This document shows, in pieces, positions 20 through 47,942 of a DNA stretch of 64,000 bases. The position numbers and the translations under genes are program-made. Origin of the DNA: Pyrinomonas methylaliphatogenes (lineage in GTDB: Bacteria; Acidobacteriota; Blastocatellia; Pyrinomonadales; Pyrinomonadaceae); contig NZ_CBXV010000005.1 in NCBI RefSeq assembly GCF_000820845.2, positions 1 to 64,000 of the forward strand, read 5' to 3'. The stretch's first letter is position 1. Each line of letters starts with the position of its first letter. The notes beneath the pieces were generated by a model, which was given only the letters and a program-made list of their open reading frames with translations, searched no databases and was not told where the DNA came from.

Positions 20-714
20 GTTTCAATCCCACACTGGTCCGATTAAAACAGGCGAGTTACCGGCCGGACCGGCTAACTTCGAGATGTTTCAATCCCACAC
101 TGGTCCGATTAAAACCTCCTCGCCCGTCTCAACGCGTTCCTTCCCGAGCACGTTTCAATCCCACACTGGTCCGATTAAAACCCAATTGATGACGATGACG
201 ATGATGTAGTCGGACGCGTTTCAATCCCACACTGGTCCGATTAAAACTACGTCCAGGGCTGCGGTTTTACGCGTATCGAAACGAGTTTCAATCCCACACT
301 GGTCCGATTAAAACCGTCCAGGGCTGCGGTTTTACGCGTATCGAAACGAGTTTCAATCCCACACTGGTCCGATTAAAACTTGCGTCTGACGAGAGCGTTC
401 CCGTGCGCCTTGACGTGTTTCAATCCCACACTGGTCCGATTAAAACCATGTTTCGCGCCTACTTGCCCCCGACCGATAAAGTCGTTTCAATCCCACACTG
501 GTCCGATTAAAACTTCATCCACCTGCAGTGGCGGGTGGACGCCGGCGAGGTTTCAATCCCACACTGGTCCGATTAAAACATGTTGGTTAGGAGCGCCTAT
601 TAGGCGCTCGAGTCCGAGTTTCAATCCCACACTGGTCCGATTAAAACTCGGCCAGACGGTATGCGGTCTGAGAGCGCCCTGACTGTTTCAATCCCACACT
701 GGTCCGATTAAAAC
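20..714 (-). CRISPR. CRISPR array A, 11 intact repeats, continues past left edge
   Basis: Eleven copies of a 30 bp repeat (begins GTTTCAATCCC, ends CCGATTAAAAC on the + strand) start at 20, 86, 152, 218, 285, 350, 417, 484, 550, 618 and 685. I see no mismatch among them. Spacers are 35-38 nt. The reverse complement ends in ATTGAAAC, the usual 3' end of type I and type III repeats, so transcription is probably on the minus strand with the leader at the right (from 715). Two neighbouring spacers (248-284 and 315-349) are the same sequence apart from two extra bases at one end. No cas gene lies in the window, so the subtype cannot be fixed. ORFs drawn through the array are not genes. Confidence 0.98.
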
Positions 715-898
715 CCCCCTAGGATTTCTGCAAAAAACACTGATATTTCAATCAACTCCAAGAATATTTTGCCGTCGAACATCGGTAAATGTCAATCCCT
801 AGCTTAGTGACGGCAAGTGGCAATGTTTATCAAAAAACAAGTCGGTTTAGGGGTAGAGTTCTCGCAATCTTAATCGACACATTTTTAGGTTTAAGTGT
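715..898 (-). promoter_or_regulatory. Probable leader of CRISPR array A
   Basis: This AT-rich, gene-free stretch directly abuts the last perfect repeat (685-714), on the side where the leader should lie if the array is read on the minus strand. It also contains short repeat-like fragments (TTTCAATC near 746, GTCAATCCC near 791). The leader role is inferred from position, repeat orientation and composition; no promoter was identified with confidence. Confidence 0.55.
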
Positions 899-1063
899 GA
901 TGTTTGCCATATGGCTATAACCAGTCCGCGCGATCATCGGCTAGACCTCTGCTAATCTCCAGCAGAATGTTTGCCCTATGGCTATATGCCAGTCCGCCGC
1001 AGATGCAGCAGCAGTCTCAACAGCCGGACCAGATATTTGCCCTACGGCTATATGGCTAGCTCT
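899..1063. repeat. Array B: three degenerate CRISPR-pitch repeats
   Basis: Three related segments begin near 900, 967 and 1033, with cores TGTTTGCCATATGGCTATA, TGTTTGCCCTATGGCTATAT and TATTTGCCCTACGGCTATAT. Their spacing is 67 and 66 nt, the same pitch as array A, but the repeat is unrelated to GTTTCAATCCC. No ORF explains the region. I read it as a small array with its own repeat that has begun to decay. Confidence 0.6.
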
Positions 1064-1070
1064 TCGAAAT

Positions 1071-1381
1071 CTTAAATGCATTTAGGGCTGCCGTCTTCCT
1101 AGCAGCGTGATCAACTCATCGTACAGTGCCCGATCTTAATCGATGCATTTAGGGCTACCGTCCCACCCAAACTTGTACGACAGCGCGAGCCCTCAACCAC
1201 CTCGCCAGTGAACAGATCCAGCTACCGTCCCATCCACACTTGTACGACAGCCGTAAGCGGGTATCAAAGATTTTCCAGCTTCGTGGGCTGCCGTCCCACC
1301 CGCACTTGTACGATAGCATTGGGCGAGTGCCCGTCGCTAATAGCAACTACCGCCTCGCACTACCCACACTTGTACGCCAGC
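1071..1381. repeat. Array C: degenerate CRISPR-pitch repeats with a third repeat type
   Basis: Repeats with the core CCGTCCCACCC followed by CACTTGTACGACAGC occur at 1155-1184, 1222-1251 and 1288-1317, with a decayed copy ending at 1381; the steps are 67, 66 and 64 nt. A second, displaced duplication (core GCATTTAGGGCT) lies at 1078 and 1145, 67 nt apart, and a weaker relative of its flank (CTTAATCGAC) is at 869. The overlap of two repeat registers suggests two successive duplication events. The in-phase ORF with repeated LSYKCGWDGS is a by-product of the pitch, not a gene. Confidence 0.6.
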
Positions 1382-1653
1382 ATCCGCATAATCGATGAAT
1401 TTAGTGGTGTTGGTGAAAAAGAGGGGCGCGGAGCGGCTGGACCAACACGCGAAACTTGACGATGAAAGGTCGGGTGTTAGTAAAAAAGGGTTGCGCGGGG
1501 CGAGGCGAACCAGGCGCGCTTCGGAAGCGTTCTGAGCGCTTTCGAAAGCGTCACGCGTTGCGCGGAGTGGGGTGAACTAAGCGCGCTCGGTGCCGAAGCT
1601 CGTGGCGGTGGCCGCACAGCTTTGGTCTCCCTGTGGCCGTCCACAAAGCGTGT
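1382..1653. other. Gene-free spacer between arrays C and D
   Basis: I see no convincing gene here. The 202-codon minus-strand ORF that spans this region and array D has no recognisable family, runs through repeated DNA and has an arginine-rich, low-complexity composition typical of a GC-rich shadow frame. The GCGCTTTCGAAAGCG segment near 1535 is self-complementary but has no obvious context. Confidence 0.5.
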
Positions 1654-1821
1654 GACTGGCCCACATGAAGCCACCCTTGTCGAAGGGCTTTGAACGGACT
1701 GCGCACTAGTGCGAACAGCTTTGTCGCCACATGAAGCACCGTTGTCGAAGGACCGGCCTGCCGGCCGAAGAGCGTGACGCGAAACCATGGCTTTGTCGCC
1801 ACATGAAGCATCGTTGTCGAA
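1654..1821. repeat. Array D: three degenerate CRISPR-pitch repeats
   Basis: Copies of a 31 nt element occupy 1719-1749 and 1791-1821 (core TTTGTCGCCACATGAAGCA then CGTTGTCGAA), with a more diverged copy at 1654-1684 (CCCACATGAAGCC then CTTGTCGAA). The steps are 65 and 72 nt. This is a fourth repeat type at roughly the same pitch as array A. Region 1822-2137 beyond it holds no feature I can support. Confidence 0.5.
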
Positions 1822-2233
1822 AGACATTCGCTTCGACCCTCGCCAGCAAGTGGCCATCGCGGCTAGTTGGAGGCGAAGCCGATCAGAGCGATCCGCTTGA
1901 TGAAGCTTTGGCCCATCAAAAGGGTCCAGATGATCGCTCTTCACAGAAAGAGCTAGAAGACACTCCCAACCCGAGATGACCGCCCCCTTCCGCCGCGCTG
2001 GCGCTCTTCGCTTGGCTGTAGGACGCTCGCTGATAGATAGTGCGCCGCCCGCGCGCCATGTCGAGAGGTCGCTTGTTTCATGCACGTTGGTTGCATCGCG
2101 ATCTTACTTAGGTGCTATTTATGAAACTGCCTCTCGAGTGTTAATCGGACCAGCGTGGGATCGAAACGCGGGCGCCTTCGCCTCATGCGGCGAAAACGCC
2201 CGCGCTTTAATCGGACCAGTTGCTTTCTCCTTT

Positions 2234-2321
2234 AACTTGTGGAACTAAGGGGGCCGTGGGGGGCCCCCGTGTTGAATTTGAATTCTTTTTCATTTTGTTT
2301 TTTTTCCTTTCTTTTGTCATG
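2234..2321 (+). promoter_or_regulatory. GC hairpin plus T-rich tract, candidate leader of array E
   Basis: A 7 bp stem (2249-2255 with 2262-2268, GGGGGCC/GGCCCCC) is followed by a strongly T-rich stretch to 2320. It separates two damaged repeats (2138, 2204) from the well-preserved repeats beginning at 2322. Position and composition fit a leader for a + strand array. The hairpin with T-run also looks like an intrinsic terminator, so the role is uncertain. Confidence 0.4.
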
Positions 2322-2605
2322 GGTTTAATCGGACCAGCGTGGGATTGAAACGGCGCATGCCGACCTCCGCCAATCCGTGCATCCCACGTTTTAATCGGAC
2401 CAAAGTGGGATTGAAACTTTGCACGCGGCGCGTCGGTTTGGCCGGTGCGTCTGGTTTTAATCGGACCAGTGTGAGATTGAAACACCGTGGAACCCCGCCG
2501 GGTCGAGCGGACCCGCCCTGTTTTAAACGGACCGGTGTGGGATTGAAACCCGCAAAACTTCAACAAGCTAGGCGTGGTCGCTTGCGCCTTAATCGGACCA
2601 GGGTG

Positions 2606-2703
2606 GGACTCGAGGACAACCAGTACACGCTCGGGCGCTTCTCAAGATCCTCCCTTATCTTTTGTTTGGCAGCACTCGAGGACAACCAGTACGCGCTCGT
2701 GCG
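2606..2703. repeat. Off-register 66 nt duplication inside array E
   Basis: The segment ACTCGAGGACAACCAGTAC and about ten following bases occur at 2608 and again at 2674, 66 nt apart. The duplicated piece starts in the last bases of the repeat at 2586-2615 and extends into its spacer, so it straddles a repeat-spacer junction. The 36 nt between the copies (about 2636-2671) resemble neither copy. Removing one copy plus that insert would leave a repeat-to-repeat step of 60 nt from 2586 to the repeat now at 2712. Confidence 0.8.
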
Positions 2704-3057
2704 ATTGTCTAGCTTTAATCGGACCAGTGTGGGATTGAAAAACTGGATCGTAGTTTCATCACGCAATTTTCTTAAGTCGTTTTAATCGGACCAAAGGGGG
2801 ATTGAACCCTGGGGGAGCGGTTAAGGGGGTAACTGGTTTTAATCGGACTCAGGTCTGGAACCAAAGCGAACTAAAAAGCTCTCATGTAGGGAGTTTAACT
2901 GGTTTAATCAGACTGCTGTACAGCGTCACACATCGGCGACGTCGAGCTCGTGGTGCCATGTTTAGCTGGTTTAATCAGACTGCCGTACGGACTTTAGCAC
3001 GCCATCGCGGCATCGTGTAGGGAGCTGGTTTTAATAGGACCAGCTGGGGAAGTAGTA

Positions 3058-3609
3058 AATTGTGTTCTCTGTCTTGTATTAGGCCCATAACGCGCGCATT
3101 TTGCGTAGCCGAGTGTCATTCAGCGTTCTAGAAACTTAGACCAGCGACCGCGGTCAAAGTCATGCCAATCAATAAAGCCTCAAGGTTTCGGGGAACAATG
3201 GGAAGCGCAGCCGCTTACTGATTGAAAGACACCGACTTCGATTAACTTCTCGCGCGCCGCATCGACGATAGCGCAGTCGCTTACTGGGAGAAAATCGCGC
3301 CCAGGCTCAAGGCGTGATGGATGATTACATGTGGTTAAGGGTCAATAGCCGCTGCCAAAAACGGGCCCAAGCTCAAGACGTGATGGATGATTACGCCATC
3401 GGTGCTTGACTCTACTTCCGTTATGTTGTATGTCATACGAACCTCGTCGACTGCCGTTCGCTTCGCCGCAGGGAAGCGCAGTCAATCCGCGCGATTCATG
3501 ATAAGCGCTCTCCGTGAACGGATGGATTATGGACCATCCGGGAAATCGCGAGCAGAAAGCCCGCCAAATTAACGCCTCGTCATGAACCAGCAACAGGAGG
3601 TAACAAAAG
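3058..3609. repeat. Gene-free region with two further CRISPR-pitch duplications
   Basis: No gene is supported between array E and the small protein at 3610. Two direct duplications are visible. GCGCAG(C/T)CGCTTACTG occurs at 3205 and 3271, 66 nt apart. A 30 nt segment beginning GCCCA(G/A)GCTCAA and ending GGATGATTAC occurs at 3299-3328 and 3365-3394 with two mismatches, 66 nt apart, leaving a 36 nt insert. The second has exactly the 30/36 geometry of array A but an unrelated repeat. Confidence 0.75.
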
Positions 3610-5115: not shown

Positions 5116-5212
5116 CAAACGGTTTTGCAGCCTAAAGGCACAGCCCTCGGGAGGAAAGATCGCCGCTTCCGCTCTTTTCGACAAACGGTTTTGCAGCCTA
5201 AAGGCACAGCCC
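5116..5212. repeat. 31 bp direct duplication with 35 nt insert after the radical SAM gene
   Basis: The same 31 bases (begin CAAACGGTTTTGCAG, end AAAGGCACAGCCC) stand at 5116-5146 and 5182-5212, with no mismatch that I see. The 35 nt between them (5147-5181) resemble neither flank. The pitch is 66 nt. It begins 43 bases after the radical SAM stop codon and lies upstream of tRNA-His. Confidence 0.9.
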
Positions 5213-5658: not shown

Positions 5659-5670
5659 CTATGCATCTTG

Positions 5671-5811
5671 TGTCGCATTGCATGTGGATGTAATGCCGCC
5701 TCGGTAAGCGATGATGATGTCGAATTGCATGCGGAGGGAATGTCGCTCGGTAAATGATGATGCCGATGTGATGATGATGTCGAATTGCATGTGGAGGGAA
5801 TGTCGCTCGGT
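5671..5811. repeat. Three-copy direct repeat beside the gene remnant
   Basis: Two nearly identical blocks of about 40 bases (GATGATGATGTCGAATTGCA, then GAGGGAATGTCGCTCGGTA) lie 60 bases apart around 5710 and 5770. A more diverged copy begins near 5671 (TGTCGCATTGCATGTGGA). No gene is seen between here and tRNA-Arg. Confidence 0.75.
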
Positions 5812-5894
5812 AGCTATCGATAGACTTGGTCGCTCTGGGTTGTTGTGGAGTAGATTTTCGGCGGACTAGCCTGGTATCTGTAAAGCTATAAAAT

Positions 5895-6148: not shown

Positions 6149-6254
6149 AGCGGATTCAATGCGCACGCGGCTGAAGCGATGATTTCCACACGCTCCCGCG
6201 CGGTATTCAACTCGCAGTCGAGGTTGATTCAATGCGCACGCGGCTGAAACGGTC
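6149..6254. repeat. Direct duplication upstream of the AI-2E permease gene
   Basis: GATTCAATGCGCACGCGGCT plus GAA occurs at 6153-6175 and 6226-6248, 73 bases apart, with partly conserved flanks (CGAG before, CG after). The rest of 5972-6336 shows no gene or structure I can name. Confidence 0.7.
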
Positions 6255-6336: not shown

Positions 6337-7422
6337 ATGAGCACGGATAAGATGAAGCTGGCGCGCGGGCGTAGGGCGCGATGGGCAGTTCTGATCATCG
6401 CAACGGCGATCGCGCTTTACGTTTGCTGGTTAATGCTGCAACCTCTTCTGAACGTCTTAGTGTGGGCGATCGTTCTGGTCATACTCTTTCATCCGTTGCA
6501 TCGGCGAATAGTGTTGCTGACGCGGAGCTCGCACCTAGGCGCTTTGCTCTCGTGTCTGTTGGTCGTCATCACGATCCTTGCGCCGCTGACTCTTGTCACC
6601 TTCGCCGTCTTCAATGAGTTGTCTGGGGCGGCGAAGATGCTGCAGGCCAATGCCGCGACGCTGCTCGATCCCGAGTCGCCTTTCATGGGACCGCTTTGGC
6701 GATGGTTGGGCCGGTTCGTCGATGTCGAGAGTTTACGCGCCGGTTGGCTTTCCGCCGAGCGCATCCAAGCGGCGGTTCAAACTGCGGCTGGTGCGATTGC
6801 CGGGCGCACCCTTGGGGTGCTCGGCGGAGCGTTCGGCATCGTGATCGACACGTTCTTCATCATCTTCACGATGTACTATCTGTTTCGCGACGGCGAACGC
6901 ATCCTACGTGCTTTGCGTGATTTCCTGCCGCTCGATCGCGCGCAAGTGGATACCGTCTTCACGCGCGCGCGTGAAGTGATCAACGCGAGTCTCTATGGCG
7001 TATTGGTGATCGGCATCATCCAAGGCGCTTTGGGCGGACTAGCTTTCTGGGCGCTCGGGCTCCCTTCGGCGATCGTCTGGGCGGTGGTGATGGCGATCCT
7101 TTCGATGATTCCGATGGCCGGAGCCTTCATCGTTTGGGTGCCAGCGGCGCTCTTCCTCGCTGCGACGGGGCATTGGGCGAAGGCCATCATGCTCACCGCT
7201 TGGGGGGCGCTGGTCATCGGGACGGTGGACAACTTCCTTCGCCCGAAGTTGGTTGGCGAAAAGACGCGCTTGCACGAGTTGTTCATCTTCTTTTCGGTGC
7301 TCGGCGGGCTGAACCTTTTTGGCGTATTGGGGCTCGTGTTGGGACCGGTCATCTTGGCGATCACGCTCGCGCTTCTCGATATCGTTCGCGAGATCGAATC
7401 CGGGGCTGAGGCTGATCATTAA
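6337..7422 (+). CDS. AI-2E family transporter (putative permease)
   Basis: This 361-residue integral membrane protein has the layout of the AI-2E transporter (PF01594) family. A hydrophobic pair lies near the N-terminus, a soluble segment covers about residues 85-165, and hydrophobic helices follow, including GVLVIGIIQGALGGLAFWALG and the conserved DNFLRPKLVG then LFIFFSVLGGL. Members export small molecules or act as Na+/H+ antiporters, so the substrate cannot be assigned. The upstream ribosome site is poor. The stop codon (7420-7422) lies inside a 29 bp segment repeated 65 bases downstream. It stands alone between tRNA-Arg and the Nudix gene. Confidence 0.9.
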   Translation: MSTDKMKLARGRRARWAVLIIATAIALYVCWLMLQPLLNVLVWAIVLVILFHPLHRRIVLLTRSSHLGALLSCLLVVITILAPLTLVTFAVFNELSGAAKMLQANAATLLDPESPFMGPLWRWLGRFVDVESLRAGWLSAERIQAAVQTAAGAIAGRTLGVLGGAFGIVIDTFFIIFTMYYLFRDGERILRALRDFLPLDRAQVDTVFTRAREVINASLYGVLVIGIIQGALGGLAFWALGLPSAIVWAVVMAILSMIPMAGAFIVWVPAALFLAATGHWAKAIMLTAWGALVIGTVDNFLRPKLVGEKTRLHELFIFFSVLGGLNLFGVLGLVLGPVILAITLALLDIVREIESGAEADH

Positions 7423-7498
7423 AGATCGCATCGCCGAACCAAACAAAACAGAAAAGCACAGACTCTTAAGCTGAGGCTGATCATTAAAGATCGCATCG
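7405..7498. repeat. 29 bp duplication over the permease stop codon with 36 nt insert
   Basis: Bases 7405-7433, which hold the last codons and TAA of the permease gene, recur exactly at 7470-7498. The 36 nt between (7434-7469) match neither flank, and nothing after the second copy resembles them, so this is not a 65 bp tandem duplication. Repeat 29, insert 36 and pitch 65 copy the geometry of CRISPR array A. Confidence 0.95.
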
Positions 7499-8133: not shown

Positions 8134-8297
8134 AAAGCTCAACGGCACGCCCTTTTACGCGGCCGTCATAAAGCGACCTTCATCGGCACCGCATATTTTA
8201 GCGATCACGGGCCAGCGTGATCAGACTCTTCGTTGATGGGAGCGGCGAGGCGTTAAACGCTTCGCCGGTCGTGTGCCGCTTTCTTCGCCCCGCCCCG

Positions 8298-8456
8298 ATT
8301 CCGCGCCTCATCTATGAATCAGAGTTCGTCATCGCGATTTTGGCGCGAGCAGCGCCGCCGTCTATCCGCGCTTCATCTGTGGGGCAGAGCCATTGGCGAT
8401 CATCCTATGTCGAGATCGCTACTCTCTATCCGCGCTTCATCTGTAGATCAGAGCCC
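8298..8456. repeat. Three-copy, two-insert repeat over the stop codon of the NamZ fusion gene
   Basis: A roughly 30 bp element with core CCGCGCTTCATCTGT starts at 8298, 8363 and 8427 (steps 65 and 64). The 8427 copy contains the end and stop codon (8437-8439) of the minus-strand gene; the copies at 8363 and 8298 are progressively more diverged and lie downstream of that gene. The two inserts are about 34-35 nt and unrelated to each other. It looks like a miniature CRISPR with the gene end as repeat. Nothing else is seen between the Nudix gene and this element. Confidence 0.85.
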
Positions 8457-10920
8457 GTTCGCGCGCGCGAAGGAACTTTTCCAACTCCTCTTGCCAAGAG
8501 CTTTCGATCGCTTCGGGCGCTTCGCCGCGTTTGAGGCGCGCGAGCGTCTCTTCATTGGCGAGCAAGCGCACATAATCGTCAACTCTCCATTCTTGCGGGT
8601 AGAGTTTGTGCAAAGCGGCGGCGATCTCTATGCCTGTGCGCACGGGGCGAAAACGCTGGCGATCGGTGATGACGATGTTGACGCCGCCGCACTCTTCGCC
8701 TTTGAAGACGGAAGCGCGCGGCGTAAAGCGCACGGGGACGAAACGGACGCCGGGTATCTCGCGTTCGTTCAAATAAGCGGCGAGGCGTTGCCCATCGAGC
8801 CACGGCGCGCCGATGAGTTCAAAGGGCGTGTCTGTGCCGCGCCCGACCGAAAGGTTAGTCGTCTCGAGAAGCCCGATGCCCGGATAGAGCGTCGCTTCCG
8901 TCAAGCTGCGCATGTTGGGCGATGGGTTGATCCACGTGAGGTTCGTCTGATCGAACCACATCGCGCGCCGCCAGCCACGCATCTCGATGACGTGAAGCTC
9001 GCAGCCTATCTTGCGCTCTTCATTGAAGAGGCGGGCCAGTTCGCCGACCGTCATGCCGTGGCGCACGGGGATCGTGTGATAAGCGGTGAAAGAGAGCTTG
9101 TCGGCATCGGCCAGCGGCCCTTCGACATCAAGGCCATTTATCGGATTGGGCCGGTCCAGCACGTAAACGGGGATGCGCGCTTTGGCCGCTTCCTCCATCA
9201 CGTAGCCGAGCGTCGAGATGTATGTGTAGAAGCGCGCGCCGATGTCTTGAATGTCGAAGACGAGCGCGTCAAGGTCGCGCAGTTGCTCCGGCTTCGGGCG
9301 GCGCGTGTCGCCGTAGAGCGAGTAGATCGGCAGTCCCGTCTTCTCATCGCGCGAGTCCGGCACCTTTTCATCGAGCGCGCCGCGAATGCCGTGTTCCGGC
9401 GAGAAGAGGGCCACGAGTTTCACGCCAGGCGCACGCGCCAGCAGATCGATCGTCGGCACACCCCGACGGTTGCGCCCCGTGTGATTGGTGACGAGTCCGA
9501 CGCGTTTGCCGACGAGCGGCTTGAAGCCGTCGCGTTCGAGCACATCTATTCCGGTCAGCACCTCAGCGTTATGGGCCTCTTCCGCGTCACCGATGCGCGC
9601 TCTCGCTTGCGCGCTCGCCATCCGCGGCAGCGTCGCCGACAATTCGGCGGCGAAACGTGCGCTCTCTTCGCGCGCTCGTTCAACCGGCAGGTCCGTAATC
9701 GAAGCGGCGACGATCGAAGCGACACGGCCCCGTAAGGGAGTCACATCGCCTTTGCCGTCCGGATGAACGCGGTTGCTCAAGAAGATGACGAACGTTTCGC
9801 TCGCCGGATCGATCCAGATCGAGGTCCCCGTAAAGCCCGTATGTCCGAATGAACCGAGAGGGAAGAGATCGCCGCGATTGGACGAATAAGCGGTCGCCAT
9901 ATCCCATCCGAGTCCGCGCGCCGCTCCTTCGGCATTGACGGCCCGCGGGCGCGTCATCGCGGCGACGCTCAACGGGCTCAAGATGCGTCGGCCAGCGTAT
10001 TCGCCGCCGTTCAAGATCATCTGGCAATAGATGGCCAGATCGTCCGCCGTGGAGAAGAGTCCGGCGTGACCGGCGACGCCGCCCATGCGATGAGCGGTCG
10101 GGTCGTGCACTTCACCGCGCAAGACCCTTTCAGCTTCGGCGCCAGCGTCTTCGGGATGGCCGCCGAGATAACTCATCTGGCCACGACGGGTTTCGGTCGG
10201 CGCGATGCGCGCAAGAAGGCTGGCGGGCGGACGGAACATCGTCTCGCGCATGCCGAGCGGCTCAAAGATGTTGCGGCGTGCGAACTCATCGAGCGGCAGA
10301 CCGCTCGCGCGCCGGACCACCTCGCCGAGCGCGATGTAGCCGATGTCGCTATAGACGAAGCGCGTTCCCGGCTGATAGCGCAGCGGCTCTTCGATGAGCC
10401 GGCGAATGGCCTCGTCGTAGCCGGTCCACCGTTTGCCGAGATCGAAGTCGGGCGCATAGCCTGCGGTGTGCGTCAACAGTTGCTCGATGGTGATACGTTC
10501 GCGCCCGCCGCCTTTGATCTCCGGGATGTAGCGCGAGAGCGGATCGCTCAAACGCACCTGCCCGCGTTCGACCAAGATCATGATGCTCGTCGCAGTGGCG
10601 ACGACCTTGGTCAAACTCGCCAGATCGAAGATCGTGTCAACGGTCATCGGCTCGCGTTGCGGGACCACGGCTCTCGATCCGTAAGCTTTGCGCCAGACGA
10701 CGCGCCCGCGCCGCGCGACGAGCACGACCGCCCCGGGAAGCCTTCTCTGCGCGATCTCTTGTTCCACGGCGCGATCTATCTCCGCGAGACGCTCGGCTGA
10801 GATGCCGACGGCGGCGGGTGAAGCGGTCGGCAGTTTGTCGGCGACCGCTCGTTGCGCGAAGAGTAGAAGCAGGAGCAGCGCTATGCCGCGCGCATCACAT
10901 TGACGACGGAAGCTCATCAT
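8437..10920 (-). CDS. Serine beta-lactamase-fold esterase fused to NamZ-type exo-N-acetylmuramidase (DUF1343)
   Basis: A signal peptide (residues 1-27, IALLLLLLFAQRAVA) precedes two domains. Residues about 35-420 form a class C beta-lactamase-like domain with SLTK (102-105), YSD (190-192, in place of YxN) and HTG (360-362). Residues about 440-827 match the DUF1343/NamZ family (VGLVTNHTGRN, FSPEHGIRG, YSLYG, LDRPNP). NamZ enzymes release MurNAc from the non-reducing ends of peptidoglycan fragments. The product is probably exported, and it would feed the MurQ/kinase salvage genes transcribed from 17.8 to 12.4 kb. The esterase half may trim peptides or acyl groups; its substrate is unknown. Confidence 0.92.
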   Translation of the reverse strand: MMSFRRQCDARGIALLLLLLFAQRAVADKLPTASPAAVGISAERLAEIDRAVEQEIAQRRLPGAVVLVARRGRVVWRKAYGSRAVVPQREPMTVDTIFDLASLTKVVATATSIMILVERGQVRLSDPLSRYIPEIKGGGRERITIEQLLTHTAGYAPDFDLGKRWTGYDEAIRRLIEEPLRYQPGTRFVYSDIGYIALGEVVRRASGLPLDEFARRNIFEPLGMRETMFRPPASLLARIAPTETRRGQMSYLGGHPEDAGAEAERVLRGEVHDPTAHRMGGVAGHAGLFSTADDLAIYCQMILNGGEYAGRRILSPLSVAAMTRPRAVNAEGAARGLGWDMATAYSSNRGDLFPLGSFGHTGFTGTSIWIDPASETFVIFLSNRVHPDGKGDVTPLRGRVASIVAASITDLPVERAREESARFAAELSATLPRMASAQARARIGDAEEAHNAEVLTGIDVLERDGFKPLVGKRVGLVTNHTGRNRRGVPTIDLLARAPGVKLVALFSPEHGIRGALDEKVPDSRDEKTGLPIYSLYGDTRRPKPEQLRDLDALVFDIQDIGARFYTYISTLGYVMEEAAKARIPVYVLDRPNPINGLDVEGPLADADKLSFTAYHTIPVRHGMTVGELARLFNEERKIGCELHVIEMRGWRRAMWFDQTNLTWINPSPNMRSLTEATLYPGIGLLETTNLSVGRGTDTPFELIGAPWLDGQRLAAYLNEREIPGVRFVPVRFTPRASVFKGEECGGVNIVITDRQRFRPVRTGIEIAAALHKLYPQEWRVDDYVRLLANEETLARLKRGEAPEAIESSWQEELEKFLRARERALIYR

Positions 10921-15841: not shown

Positions 15842-15935
15842 GCGAAGCCCGAGCGAGCTTCAATGTGCGGCGATGTCAGCGCGCTCGGGGCTGCCGACGA
15901 ATTCGATGCGAAGCCCGAACGAGCTTCGCTGTGCG
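15842..15935. repeat. 28 bp duplication with 38 nt insert just after murQ
   Basis: GCGAAGCCCGA(G/A)CGAGCTT and the bases following it occur at 15842-15869 and 15908-15935 with about three mismatches, pitch 66. The element begins seven bases beyond the murQ stop codon (15942-15944, minus strand) and lies between murQ and the symporter gene. Confidence 0.85.
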
Positions 15936-19032: not shown

Positions 19033-20145
19033 ATGCGCACGGACATCATCATCATCAGACTGGTCTTCAGCGCTATCCTCATCGTCGCCGGGTACGTCCT
19101 GCGTCCCTTCGGTCATCGTTTGATCTCGGCGATCATCGCCGGAGTGATCGCTCTGGCCATCATCTTCTTCGAGGTGCGCGTGCAGCGGGCTTCGCTCAAG
19201 ACCTTGATCGGCGCCGCCGTCGGTTCGATCCTAGGGATCATCGGGGCTTATCTGATCGGCACGCTCATCAGTCATCAAGAGTCTCCGGCGGTCGCGCCCG
19301 AAACCAAGACCTTTTTGACGCTCGCTCTGACCTTCTTTATGGCGTATGTCGGGCTAATGGTTGGAGCGGCCAAAGGCGATTATCTGGACCTTTCGGCGCT
19401 GGGCGGGATCTTCAGCGATCGCGCGACGCGGCGCGATTACAAGATACTCGATACGTCGGTCATCATCGATGGGCGGATCGCCGACATCGCCGAGACGGGG
19501 TTCTTGAGCGGCACGATCATCATCCCGCAATTCATCCTGCGCGAGCTGCAACAGGTGGCCGATTCGCCCGACGCTTCCAAGCGGCAGCGCGGGCGGCGCG
19601 GGCTCGACATGCTGCAACGCTTGCAGAGCAACAGCAAGCTCGACGTGCAGGTCGTCGATACGGACTTCCCGGCCATTCGCGAAGTCGATCTGAAGCTCAT
19701 CGAATTGAGCAAGCAGCTCGAGGCGGTCATCGTCACGAACGACTTCAATCTGAACAAGGTGGCGCAACTGCATGGCGTCACCGTGCTGAACATCAACGAG
19801 CTGGCGAACGCCCTGAAGCCGGTCGTCTTGCCGGGCGAAGCGATGCGCGTCTTCATCCTGAAGGAGGGGAAAGAGTACAACCAAGGCGTCGCTTATCTCG
19901 ATGATGGGACGATGGTGGTGGTTGACAACGCGCGCAAGATGATCGGCAAAAACGCCGATATCTCTGTGACCAGCGTGTTGCAGACGACCGCCGGGAAGAT
20001 GATCTTCGGGCGCTTGTGCGAAGAGTCGAGCGAGACGGCAGGCGGCGAACTGCGCGCTTCGAATGGGACGGTGCGCCGCCCGTTACGCGATGCCCGATCG
20101 GCCATTACGCCGACGCGCAATCCCGATCAAAGCGAGACATCTTAA
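19033..20145 (+). CDS. Membrane-anchored PIN/TRAM domain protein (YacL-like)
   Basis: 370 residues: four hydrophobic segments in residues 1-115, then a PIN nuclease domain beginning KILDTSVIIDGRIADI (acidic metal ligands) and continuing through VIVTNDFNLNKVA, then a TRAM domain (about 270-330, VAYLDDGTMVVVDNARKMIG). This is the layout of Bacillus YacL and mycobacterial homologues, often next to ispD, as here. A possible -10 (TAAAAT, 19018-19023) lies only about ten bases before ATG with no ribosome site, so the message may be leaderless. The stop codon is part of a duplicated segment. Confidence 0.93.
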   Translation: MRTDIIIIRLVFSAILIVAGYVLRPFGHRLISAIIAGVIALAIIFFEVRVQRASLKTLIGAAVGSILGIIGAYLIGTLISHQESPAVAPETKTFLTLALTFFMAYVGLMVGAAKGDYLDLSALGGIFSDRATRRDYKILDTSVIIDGRIADIAETGFLSGTIIIPQFILRELQQVADSPDASKRQRGRRGLDMLQRLQSNSKLDVQVVDTDFPAIREVDLKLIELSKQLEAVIVTNDFNLNKVAQLHGVTVLNINELANALKPVVLPGEAMRVFILKEGKEYNQGVAYLDDGTMVVVDNARKMIGKNADISVTSVLQTTAGKMIFGRLCEESSETAGGELRASNGTVRRPLRDARSAITPTRNPDQSETS

Positions 20146-20220
20146 GAGCGCGTCTCGATTTTCCGCTCAAGGCCGTGCTGCCCACGGTTACAAAGCGAGA
20201 CATCTTAAAGAAGGGCGCGT
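20128..20220. repeat. Duplication over the PIN/TRAM stop codon, 63 nt pitch
   Basis: CAAAGCGAGACATCTTAA, which includes the TAA stop of the PIN/TRAM gene, stands at 20128-20145 and again at 20191-20208, followed in both by a similar GCGCGTC. The second copy supplies the purine-rich sequence just before the ispD start at 20225, so the duplication appears to have been used as the ispD ribosome-binding region. Confidence 0.85.
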
Positions 20221-26372: not shown

Positions 26373-26653
26373 TCGCCTTGTTAAAAGTGCGAGCGGCTTG
26401 CGACTTGAAGTTTTAAGCGAGGGAGTCTCGACAGTTGCCAATAATGATGGGTTTCAGCGGCGAACTCCGACCGAAGAGTCAAGAGGAACGCTCTTTGGAA
26501 CCGATGATGAAGGAAGGGGATCGTGCCCAAACTTCTGCGGTGAGATCGGCGCGGAAAAACACAGGATCTAAAGGCGTCTATTTTGAGATCGCGTCTAAAC
26601 TTCTGCGGTGAGACAGCCGAGAGATTTCATCGTCGGCGTGAGGGAGAGATAGG
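26373..26653. repeat. Duplication AAACTTCTGCGGTGAGA in an otherwise empty region
   Basis: AAACTTCTGCGGTGAGA occurs at 26529 and 26597, 68 bases apart, just upstream of the gene at 26654. No gene or clear promoter is seen in the rest of the gap. Confidence 0.65.
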
Positions 26654-30408: not shown

Positions 30409-30502
30409 TTTAGATCGAGCCTTTTAACTTGCTAAAAATACGCGAAGGGATTCGGGTTCCTCACCCGCTGTGATGGGCAGTTTAGATCGAGCCTTTTAAC
30501 TT
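30409..30502. repeat. 22 bp duplication upstream of larE, 72 nt pitch
   Basis: TTTAGATCGAGCCTTTTAAC plus TT stands at 30409-30430 and 30481-30502 without mismatch, in the divergent region between the TPR operon and larE. No promoter was identified with confidence in 30268-30567. Confidence 0.8.
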
Positions 30503-38378: not shown

Positions 38379-39521
38379 ATGAGGAGAGTGTTCGCCACCT
38401 TCAAAAAAACTCTCCGGTACTTACAGGCCGCGCTCAGCGTGATGGCCGTCACGGCCATGCTCGTCCTCTTTAGGGTGCAGATCAATGCGACGACCGTCGC
38501 TCTGACGATGACGCTCGCCATCCTCTTCATCGCCACTTTCATGGGAAGCGGGCCGGCTTTCTTCGCTTCGGTGTTGGCGATGCTCTGTTTCAACTATTTC
38601 TTCCTTCCGCCAGTGGGCACGTTGACGATCGCCGATCCGCAAAATTGGATCGCGCTTTTCGTCTTCTTCATCGTCTCGCTTACGGCTGGTCAGCTCTCAG
38701 CCCACGCGCGCCGTCGCACGGAAGAGGCGGAAGCCGGTCGCAGAGAAGTTGAGAGATTGTACAGAGAATTGCAAGAGGCATTCGAACGCGCCAGTCAAGC
38801 CGAAGCGCTTCGCCGCAGCGAAAAACTCAAATCGGCGCTGCTCGATGCCGTCACGCACGATATAAGGACCCCGCTCACTTCGATCAAAGCTTCAGTGACC
38901 ACCCTGCTTGAAGGTTGCGCCGGTAAGATCAGCGCTTTCGATGGAAAGATGGAGCGCGAGATGCTCCTGGTGATAGACGAAGAGTGCGACAGGCTCAATC
39001 GGTATACCGAAAAGTTGCTCGAGTTGGCGCGAATCGAAGCCGGCGAGTTGCGCCTTCATCGGCGTTGGGAAGCGGTCGATGAGCTGATTGACGCAGCTCT
39101 CAAACGCGCCGAGCCGCTCGTCGGCGAACGTAAGGTAGAGGTGATCTTGCCGGAAGAACTTCCGGTCATCCTCGTTGATTCGCATGCCGTGTCGGAAGCG
39201 ATCTACTCGTTGCTCGATAACGCTGCGAAGTACTCCCCTCGCGGCAGCACCATTCGGATAGAGGCGCGTTGCGTGGGCGAAGATGTGGAGATCGCCGTCG
39301 AAGACGAGGGAAACGGCATCCCCATAGAACTGCGTGAGCGCGTGTTTGATAAGTTCTTCCGCGCCGATGACGGCGCGGGGGAGAAAGGGGTCGGCATGGG
39401 ATTGGCGATCGCGCGTGGCATCGTGGAGGCTCATGGCGGAAGGATTTGGATCGAAGATCCGAAAGTTGGCCAAGGAACGCGCATCGCCTTCACGCTTCCG
39501 ATAGGGGACGATGGCGCTTAA
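38379..39521 (+). CDS. Sensor histidine kinase with DUF4118, equivalent to the C-terminal half of KdpD
   Basis: About 380 residues from ATG 38379; an in-frame ATG at 38334 is upstream. Residues about 12-115 form four TM helices of the DUF4118 type found in KdpD (VTAMLVLFRVQI, NYFFLPPVGTLTIADPQNW). The HisKA domain holds the phospho-acceptor in LDAVTHDIRTPLTSIKAS. The ATPase domain has DNAAKYSP (N box), EDEGNGIP (G1) and GMGLAI. The osmosensory N-terminal KdpD and USP domains are absent but are encoded separately at 45794-46972. It is followed by the KdpE-like regulator. The stop codon region is duplicated 65 bases on. Confidence 0.92.
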   Translation: MRRVFATFKKTLRYLQAALSVMAVTAMLVLFRVQINATTVALTMTLAILFIATFMGSGPAFFASVLAMLCFNYFFLPPVGTLTIADPQNWIALFVFFIVSLTAGQLSAHARRRTEEAEAGRREVERLYRELQEAFERASQAEALRRSEKLKSALLDAVTHDIRTPLTSIKASVTTLLEGCAGKISAFDGKMEREMLLVIDEECDRLNRYTEKLLELARIEAGELRLHRRWEAVDELIDAALKRAEPLVGERKVEVILPEELPVILVDSHAVSEAIYSLLDNAAKYSPRGSTIRIEARCVGEDVEIAVEDEGNGIPIELRERVFDKFFRADDGAGEKGVGMGLAIARGIVEAHGGRIWIEDPKVGQGTRIAFTLPIGDDGA

Positions 39522-39601
39522 AGAGTCCAGATGACCGGAACGCACACAACTCTATCAATGCACGTTGAAGGGATGATGGCGCTTAAAGAGCGCTAGATGA
39601 C
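39505..39601. repeat. 31 bp duplication over the kinase stop codon, 65 nt pitch
   Basis: GGGA(C/T)GATGGCGCTTAAAGAG, with the TAA stop of the histidine kinase gene in the first copy, followed by a shared AGATGAC, stands at 39505-39535 and 39570-39601. The insert of about 34 nt matches neither flank. Confidence 0.9.
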
Positions 39602-47848: not shown

Positions 47849-47942
47849 CGAATCAATGCTTCGTTCGCTTTTCGCCGTCTACCTTCATCCGCCATTCACC
47901 GTCGCGCTTGACTCCGAATCAACGCTTCGTTCGCTTTTCGCC
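47849..47942. repeat. 28 bp duplication with 38 nt insert after the efflux operon
   Basis: CGAATCAA(T/C)GCTTCGTTCG, continuing CTTTTCGCC, stands at 47849-47876 and 47915-47942 (27 of 28 identical), pitch 66. The right copy lies 10 bases after the stop of the minus-strand MFS gene; the left copy is just upstream of the M15-like gene. Confidence 0.92.

Follow-up and report, generated by a model that had tools for sequence, protein, structure and literature searches.

Direct repeats at CRISPR-like pitch in the genome of Pyrinomonas methylaliphatogenes K22 very probably record off-target spacer integration

The stretch analysed here (the window) is the 64-kb start of contig C5 of the Pyrinomonas methylaliphatogenes K22T genome, which comprises 3,788,560 bases in 16 contigs. 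It opens with CRISPR array A and its probable leader, and beyond them lie unrelated short direct repeats at a pitch of 64-72 nt (arrays B, C and D), followed by a decayed array. These features are as follows (a slash marks a repeat boundary; direct repeats given without a strand are called unstranded):

20-714, minus strand: array A, 30-nt repeat in 11 perfect copies (minus-strand sequence GTTTTAATCGGACCAGTGTGGGATTGAAAC), pitch 65-68
715-890, minus strand: probable array A leader, minus-strand end ...CCTAGGGGG at the first repeat
899-1064, unstranded: array B, three copies at 900, 967 and 1033, pitch 67 and 66, repeat of 22-31 nt ATGTTTGCCCTATGGCTATATGCCAGTCCGC
1070-1162, unstranded: array C, register 1, ATCTTAA(TCG)ATGCATTTAGGGCTRCCGTC duplicated, pitch 63-67
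1154-1384, unstranded: array C, register 2, 31-nt repeat GCTACCGTCCCACCCACACTTGTACGACAGC, four copies, the last decayed
1490-1587, unstranded: D1, 31-nt duplication at 1490 and 1557, lag 67, 81% identity, left flank AAAAGG/GTTGCG
1649-1825, unstranded: D2, 36-nt duplication GCTTTGTCGCCACATGAAGCAYCGTTGTCGAARGAC, lag 72, 94% identity, 72-class geometry
2138-3057, plus strand: decayed run of array A repeats, oriented opposite to array A

The leader of array A was placed at 715-890, adjoining array B, because the minus-strand repeat ends in ATTGAAAC; the native leader-repeat junction reads ...GGGGG/GTTTTAATC. Arrays B, C and D are located between two back-to-back leader ends, that of array A and that of the decayed inverted array at 2138-3057. 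Array A is interrupted by the end of contig C5 and resumes on contig C9 beside a type I-B operon (cas6, cas8b, cas7, cas5, cas3, cas4, cas1b and cas2). Array 2 (C5:115269-118785) has 36-nt repeats at a pitch of 72-73 and is preceded by type III-A genes and by a Cas4g/Cas1g fusion accompanied by cas2. The genome contains only two cas1 genes: Cas1b, encoded with Cas4 and Cas2, and the Cas4g/Cas1g fusion, encoded with Cas2.

Several other features were seen at or near these systems. Two neighbouring spacers of array A at 248-350 have the same sequence and unequal length, one starting 2 nt later; they may come from one protospacer that was sampled twice, or from a duplication with a small deletion. 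Another small array with a different repeat (TTTTCAACCTATAATGGAAGAAAT, pitch 57-68) lies beside array 2 (L003:19085-19372). Mini-arrays of type I-E geometry, with 29-nt repeats at pitch 61, are present at C2:64301-64512 and C3:215072-215443, despite no Cas1e gene being found in the genome. The type I-B Cas1 (P0001, L008:13624-14985) has approximately 110 extra low-complexity residues in its N-terminal part. An origin of these residues as an integration product was considered and rejected, the same region being matched in the relatives G031, G035 and G039, and no 66-nt repeats were found in this N-terminal region. A contig scan with a neighbouring protein gave one remote match. In both systems, the interval from cas1 to cas2 holds direct-repeat pairs of the 72-74 nt class, with three pairs in the Cas1g operon (C5:114378-114759) and one in the I-B operon (C9:55157-55271), where cas2 expression may be affected.

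Alignment of the copies clarified the structure of the small arrays. Register 1 of array C has copies at 1076 and 1143, which extend leftward to 1070-1096 and 1133-1162 if a 3-nt indel is allowed. Register 2 has well-conserved copies at 1154, 1221 and 1287 and a decayed fourth at about 1351-1383, and its left flank, ...TTTAGG/GCTACC, is leader-like. What had been taken as array D is two separate duplications: D1, and D2 with copies at about 1654, 1718 and 1790, of which the last two are those at lag 72 and the one at about 1654 is older. In 200 trials, dinucleotide shuffles of positions 720-2130 never produced a pair of this kind with a lag of 60-75. The original prediction had described unrelated repeats at 64-72 nt pitch with at least three copies each and two overlapping registers in array C. 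The pitch and the unrelatedness of the repeats are real (0/200 shuffles match), and the two registers were recovered by copy alignment at 1070-1162 and 1154-1384. D divides into a two-copy and a three-copy duplication. Assignment of B, C and D to a common origin was based on the geometry that they share with the genome-wide class described below and, for C and D1, on the flank motif, and so they are putative members of that class.

Self-comparison of the window found the same pattern at further positions, the last at 47849, with lags from 63 to 73 for pairs beyond the array. All are unstranded:

2608-2712: off-target-type pair, lag 66, within the decayed array, left flank GTGGG/
2893-2988: 29-nt pair, lag 67, weakly array A-like (p 0.014)
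3204-3394: two pairs, 3204/3270 (24 nt) and 3291/3357 (38 nt), lag 66
5116-5212: identical 31-nt pair, lag 66, immediately upstream of a tRNA gene
6153-6248: identical 23-nt pair, lag 73
7405-7498: identical 29-nt pair, lag 65, across the stop codon of an intact gene (6337-7422)
8296-8455: three copies (pattern at 8361), lags 65 and 64, adjoining the stop codon of the gene at 8437-10920 (minus strand)
15842-15935: 28-nt pair, lag 66, between two genes
20128-20208: identical 18-nt pair, weak, lag 63, at a gene end
26519-26613: 27-nt pair, lag 68, intergenic
30409-30502: identical 22-nt pair, lag 72, intergenic
39505-39590: 21-nt pair, lag 65, at a gene end
47849-47942: 28-nt pair, lag 66, occupying the whole space between two genes

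In addition, a 43-nt sequence occurs three times between two tRNA genes at 5663-5812, with spacings of 47 and 60, a geometry unlike that of integration.

The presence next door (2138-3057) of array A repeats that have truly decayed raises the possibility that B, C and D are remnants of array A, or of an older array, that have decayed past recognition. Array C aligns weakly to array A (p 0.007-0.034), as this explanation would predict. Array B, in contrast, has no likeness to the array A or array 2 repeats, and B, D1 and D2 all align to arrays A and 2 at the level of shuffled sequence, save for one D2 copy (p 0.016), while most control decayed repeats give p 0 in the same shuffle test. Furthermore, B, C and D each consist of copies that are alike, which independent decay cannot produce, and more than 100 sites remote from any array show the same geometry. 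These results make decay a highly improbable explanation. The earlier view that these arrays are not decayed copies of array A was upheld for B and D by the shuffle test and has to be tempered for C by its weak likeness to array A. Since the copies of C resemble one another, as four array A repeats decaying independently would not, array C may be a repeat-like target of integration.

The geometry was then surveyed in 1.88 of the 3.79 Mb of the K22T genome. Pairs of direct repeats were concentrated at lags of 60-75 (134 pairs, versus 13 at lags 76-135 and 23 at lags 136-599), and there were almost none at lags 78-113. Once arrays and the I-E-like mini-arrays (C2:64301 and C3:215121) were set aside, 125 pairs remained at lags 60-75, distributed over 121 sites. 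The length of the repeat tracked the pitch (p 1.3e-4): pairs at lags 65-67 had a median of 29 nt, and for lags 71-74 the median was 35 nt. In other words, two rulers are represented, one with repeats of about 30 nt at pitch 66, which is the geometry of array A, and one with repeats of about 36 nt at pitch 72-73, which is the geometry of array 2. Forty-three pairs have near-identical copies, and across the pairs identity stops after about 30 or 36 nt. Apart from B, C and D2, a strict search identified four sites with two inserts in one register, and a weaker third copy was present at four more sites and at none in a shifted control. Site density was 12.6 and 10.7 per 100 kb on the two contigs that carry CRISPR loci and 4-6 per 100 kb on the other well-sampled contigs.

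The sites are scattered, mostly intergenic and of fixed size, as might be expected of small mobile or regulatory elements that belong to one family (REP, STAR-like or MITE) and have a fixed period. However, the repeats differ between sites and the inserts are mutually unrelated (a spacer-to-spacer search gave one 14-nt match), and period and repeat length fall into two classes that match both resident arrays. An element family is thus very unlikely to be responsible.

The boundaries of the repeats were informative for the 66 class. GG was present within 3 nt outside one end at 31 of 51 sites of this class, versus 21% expected (p 7e-10). In the window this flank was seen at C, D1, 7405, 2608, 5116 and 47849, and B is without it; the right-hand boundary of the 5116 pair, CACAGCCC/CCTC, is GG/GGGC on the opposite strand, and the right end of the 47849 pair is GG/GGCG on the opposite strand. 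The target of the 66 class resembles the native leader-repeat junction, where the array A leader has GGGGG at the repeat. A clear leader-like target motif was sought for the 72 class and was not found.

The sites also avoid genes. With genes called by a simple codon-usage method, only 5 of the 121 sites were in gene interiors, versus approximately 97 (80%) expected. In all 31 cases in which an insert reaches a stop codon, the gene was left whole: the copy on the side of the gene carries the stop codon, and the duplication thereby rebuilds the end of the gene.

K22 is a draft genome from a hybrid assembly in which contigs end in CRISPR arrays, and an assembly or sequencing artefact might be suspected on that account. 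However, coverage of approximately 75x was reported (PMC4644332), most pairs have diverged copies and unique inserts, and an artefact would leave the avoidance of genes and the boundary motif unexplained. Of the explanations considered, this one is hardly credible.

Likely donors were identified for two inserts. The insert at C2:103984 resembles C2:263737-263769 (97% over 33 nt), and the insert at C9:28230 resembles C1:89399-89429 (97% over 31 nt). These two near-copies in the genome carry a mismatch, so a homologue elsewhere could be the true source, and most inserts are without an identified donor. The insert at C5:207244 terminates in the opening 12 nt of the array A repeat. Comparison of two young spacers with viral contigs gave no exact 22-nt match.

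Related genomes were also compared. At the site corresponding to C5:189665, a congeneric genome (G001) has the same pair of genes with a single target copy and no insert between them, which is an empty site, and the insert at C2:244254 is likewise absent from G001. The alignment of empty sites rests on this one clean case, the intergenic DNA of G001 at one other junction being too different to judge, and no paralogous empty sites were found within the K22 genome. The I-B leader of G001 also ends in a G-run at the repeat, longer than that of the K22 array A leader, and G001 has a pair of its own (L156:1371-1468, 33 nt, lag 65) approximately 400 bases outside its I-B array on the leader side. 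Given this pair, the habit of leaving stray pairs may be a trait of the genus. A genome from the same family that has no cas1 contained no pairs at lags 54-149 in 195 kb. In a genome from the same class with five cas1 matches and very large arrays, approximately 2 stray pairs were seen outside arrays in 400 kb, versus the 26 or so predicted from the K22 rate.

Each repeat-insert unit resembles a tandem repeat of period 66 in which one half has been conserved, and the pairs might accordingly be tandem duplications of approximately 66 or 72 bp in which divergence has affected the second half. But the near-identity of the 43 pairs over about 30 nt and its sharp end argue against this, because drift would not erase 36 nt yet spare 30, and conservation over the whole period, as in a tandem repeat, is not seen in the pairs. 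Tandem duplication also leaves aside the two inserts that match DNA elsewhere in the genome, the motif at the boundaries of the 66 class and the clean empty site in G001. It deserves very little credence.

Arrays B, C and D, together with about 120 other sites in the half of the genome that was read, are best explained as off-target full-site spacer integrations by the resident Cas1-Cas2 integrases, that is, as seeds of neo-CRISPR arrays (probability approximately 0.91). The integrase would capture a fragment of about 36 bp and attack chromosomal DNA that resembles a leader-repeat junction; for the I-B enzyme, this would be a site with GG immediately outside and, on the inside, G or C followed by T. 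A ruler would set the second attack about 30 bp away for the type I-B enzyme or about 36 bp away for Cas4g/Cas1g, and repair of the gaps would duplicate the intervening stretch and leave a repeat-spacer-repeat unit with a pitch of 66 or 72-73. Some of the duplications would be used again in the same register and grow into mini-arrays such as B, C and D2; the presence of several inserts per register at four sites, more weakly at four others, and in B, C and D2 suggests that a new duplication can be a target once more. Insertions within genes would be removed by selection, while those that are intergenic or rebuild a gene end would survive and later decay. The two enzymes are the presumed agents on the basis of geometry, motif and their presence in the genome, the steps probably follow in this order, and the process may still be active.

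Integration at non-CRISPR sites was the mechanism first proposed for the region beside array A. It is borne out by the fixed pitch, the unrelated repeats, the two length classes, the GG motif, the avoidance of genes, the near-copy donors and the empty site, but the proposal was too local, since the pattern is genome-wide rather than specific to this region. The description of the region as a nursery of new repeats is apt only insofar as some sites have gained two or three spacers in one register.

It is possible, though doubtful, that in this lineage off-target adaptation continues to act as a source of mutation across the genome and founds new CRISPR arrays, and that B and C, beside the I-B leader, are arrays of new repeats that the resident machinery can read. 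If so, horizontal transfer would not be needed for new repeat families to arise. The origin of new CRISPR loci and the natural accuracy of adaptation are open questions that have rested on overexpression, in vitro work and few natural cases. On the integration reading, the small K22 genome is a large natural sample of more than 100 events by two integrases, datable by the divergence of their copies, in which target preferences can be read from the boundaries and selection is visible at gene ends. Real integration products may lie behind many weak CRISPR predictions with a single spacer, and comparison of a lag histogram with the pitch of the resident arrays is a cheap test for any genome.

Off-target full-site integration by overexpressed E. 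coli enzymes was reportedly observed in 2018 by Nivala, Shipman and Church, who are said to have found native-like sites duplicated and to have proposed the products as seeds of new arrays. They are also said to have described a few natural cases, in Yersinia pestis and Sulfolobus islandicus. The K22 sites are like these neo-CRISPR products in that they represent full-site integration outside arrays with duplication of native-like chromosomal targets, and unlike them in that there are about 120 natural sites in half a genome, with two rulers together and some sites with multiple spacers.

In vitro, the type II-A Cas1-Cas2 of Streptococcus thermophilus integrates off target, mainly as half-site events on plasmids, at sites that mimic the leader-repeat junction with a guanine at the attack point, and a ruler sets the length of the repeat (Kim et al. 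2019, PMC6895254). The K22 sites share the junction mimicry with G and the ruler-set repeat length, but they are completed and inherited chromosomal events, and the systems are type I-B and Cas4g/Cas1g. Ectopic spacer acquisition inside the arrays of S. thermophilus, away from the leader end (PMC7999890; reviewed in PMC8047081), uses an existing repeat, whereas the K22 targets are unrelated chromosomal sequences. A literature search that covered few subscription journals found no account of natural off-target integration on the scale of a genome. The reaction is already known (Nivala 2018; Kim 2019), and its natural accumulation at this scale, with two rulers in one genome, appears to be undescribed. 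False-CRISPR elements (PMC5294841) are short repeat-spacer-like structures without cas genes of their own, and they either have no spacer diversity or are tandem repeats. The K22 sites are likewise short repeat-spacer-like structures without their own cas genes, but they differ from those elements in having unique inserts and an integrase-specific geometry.
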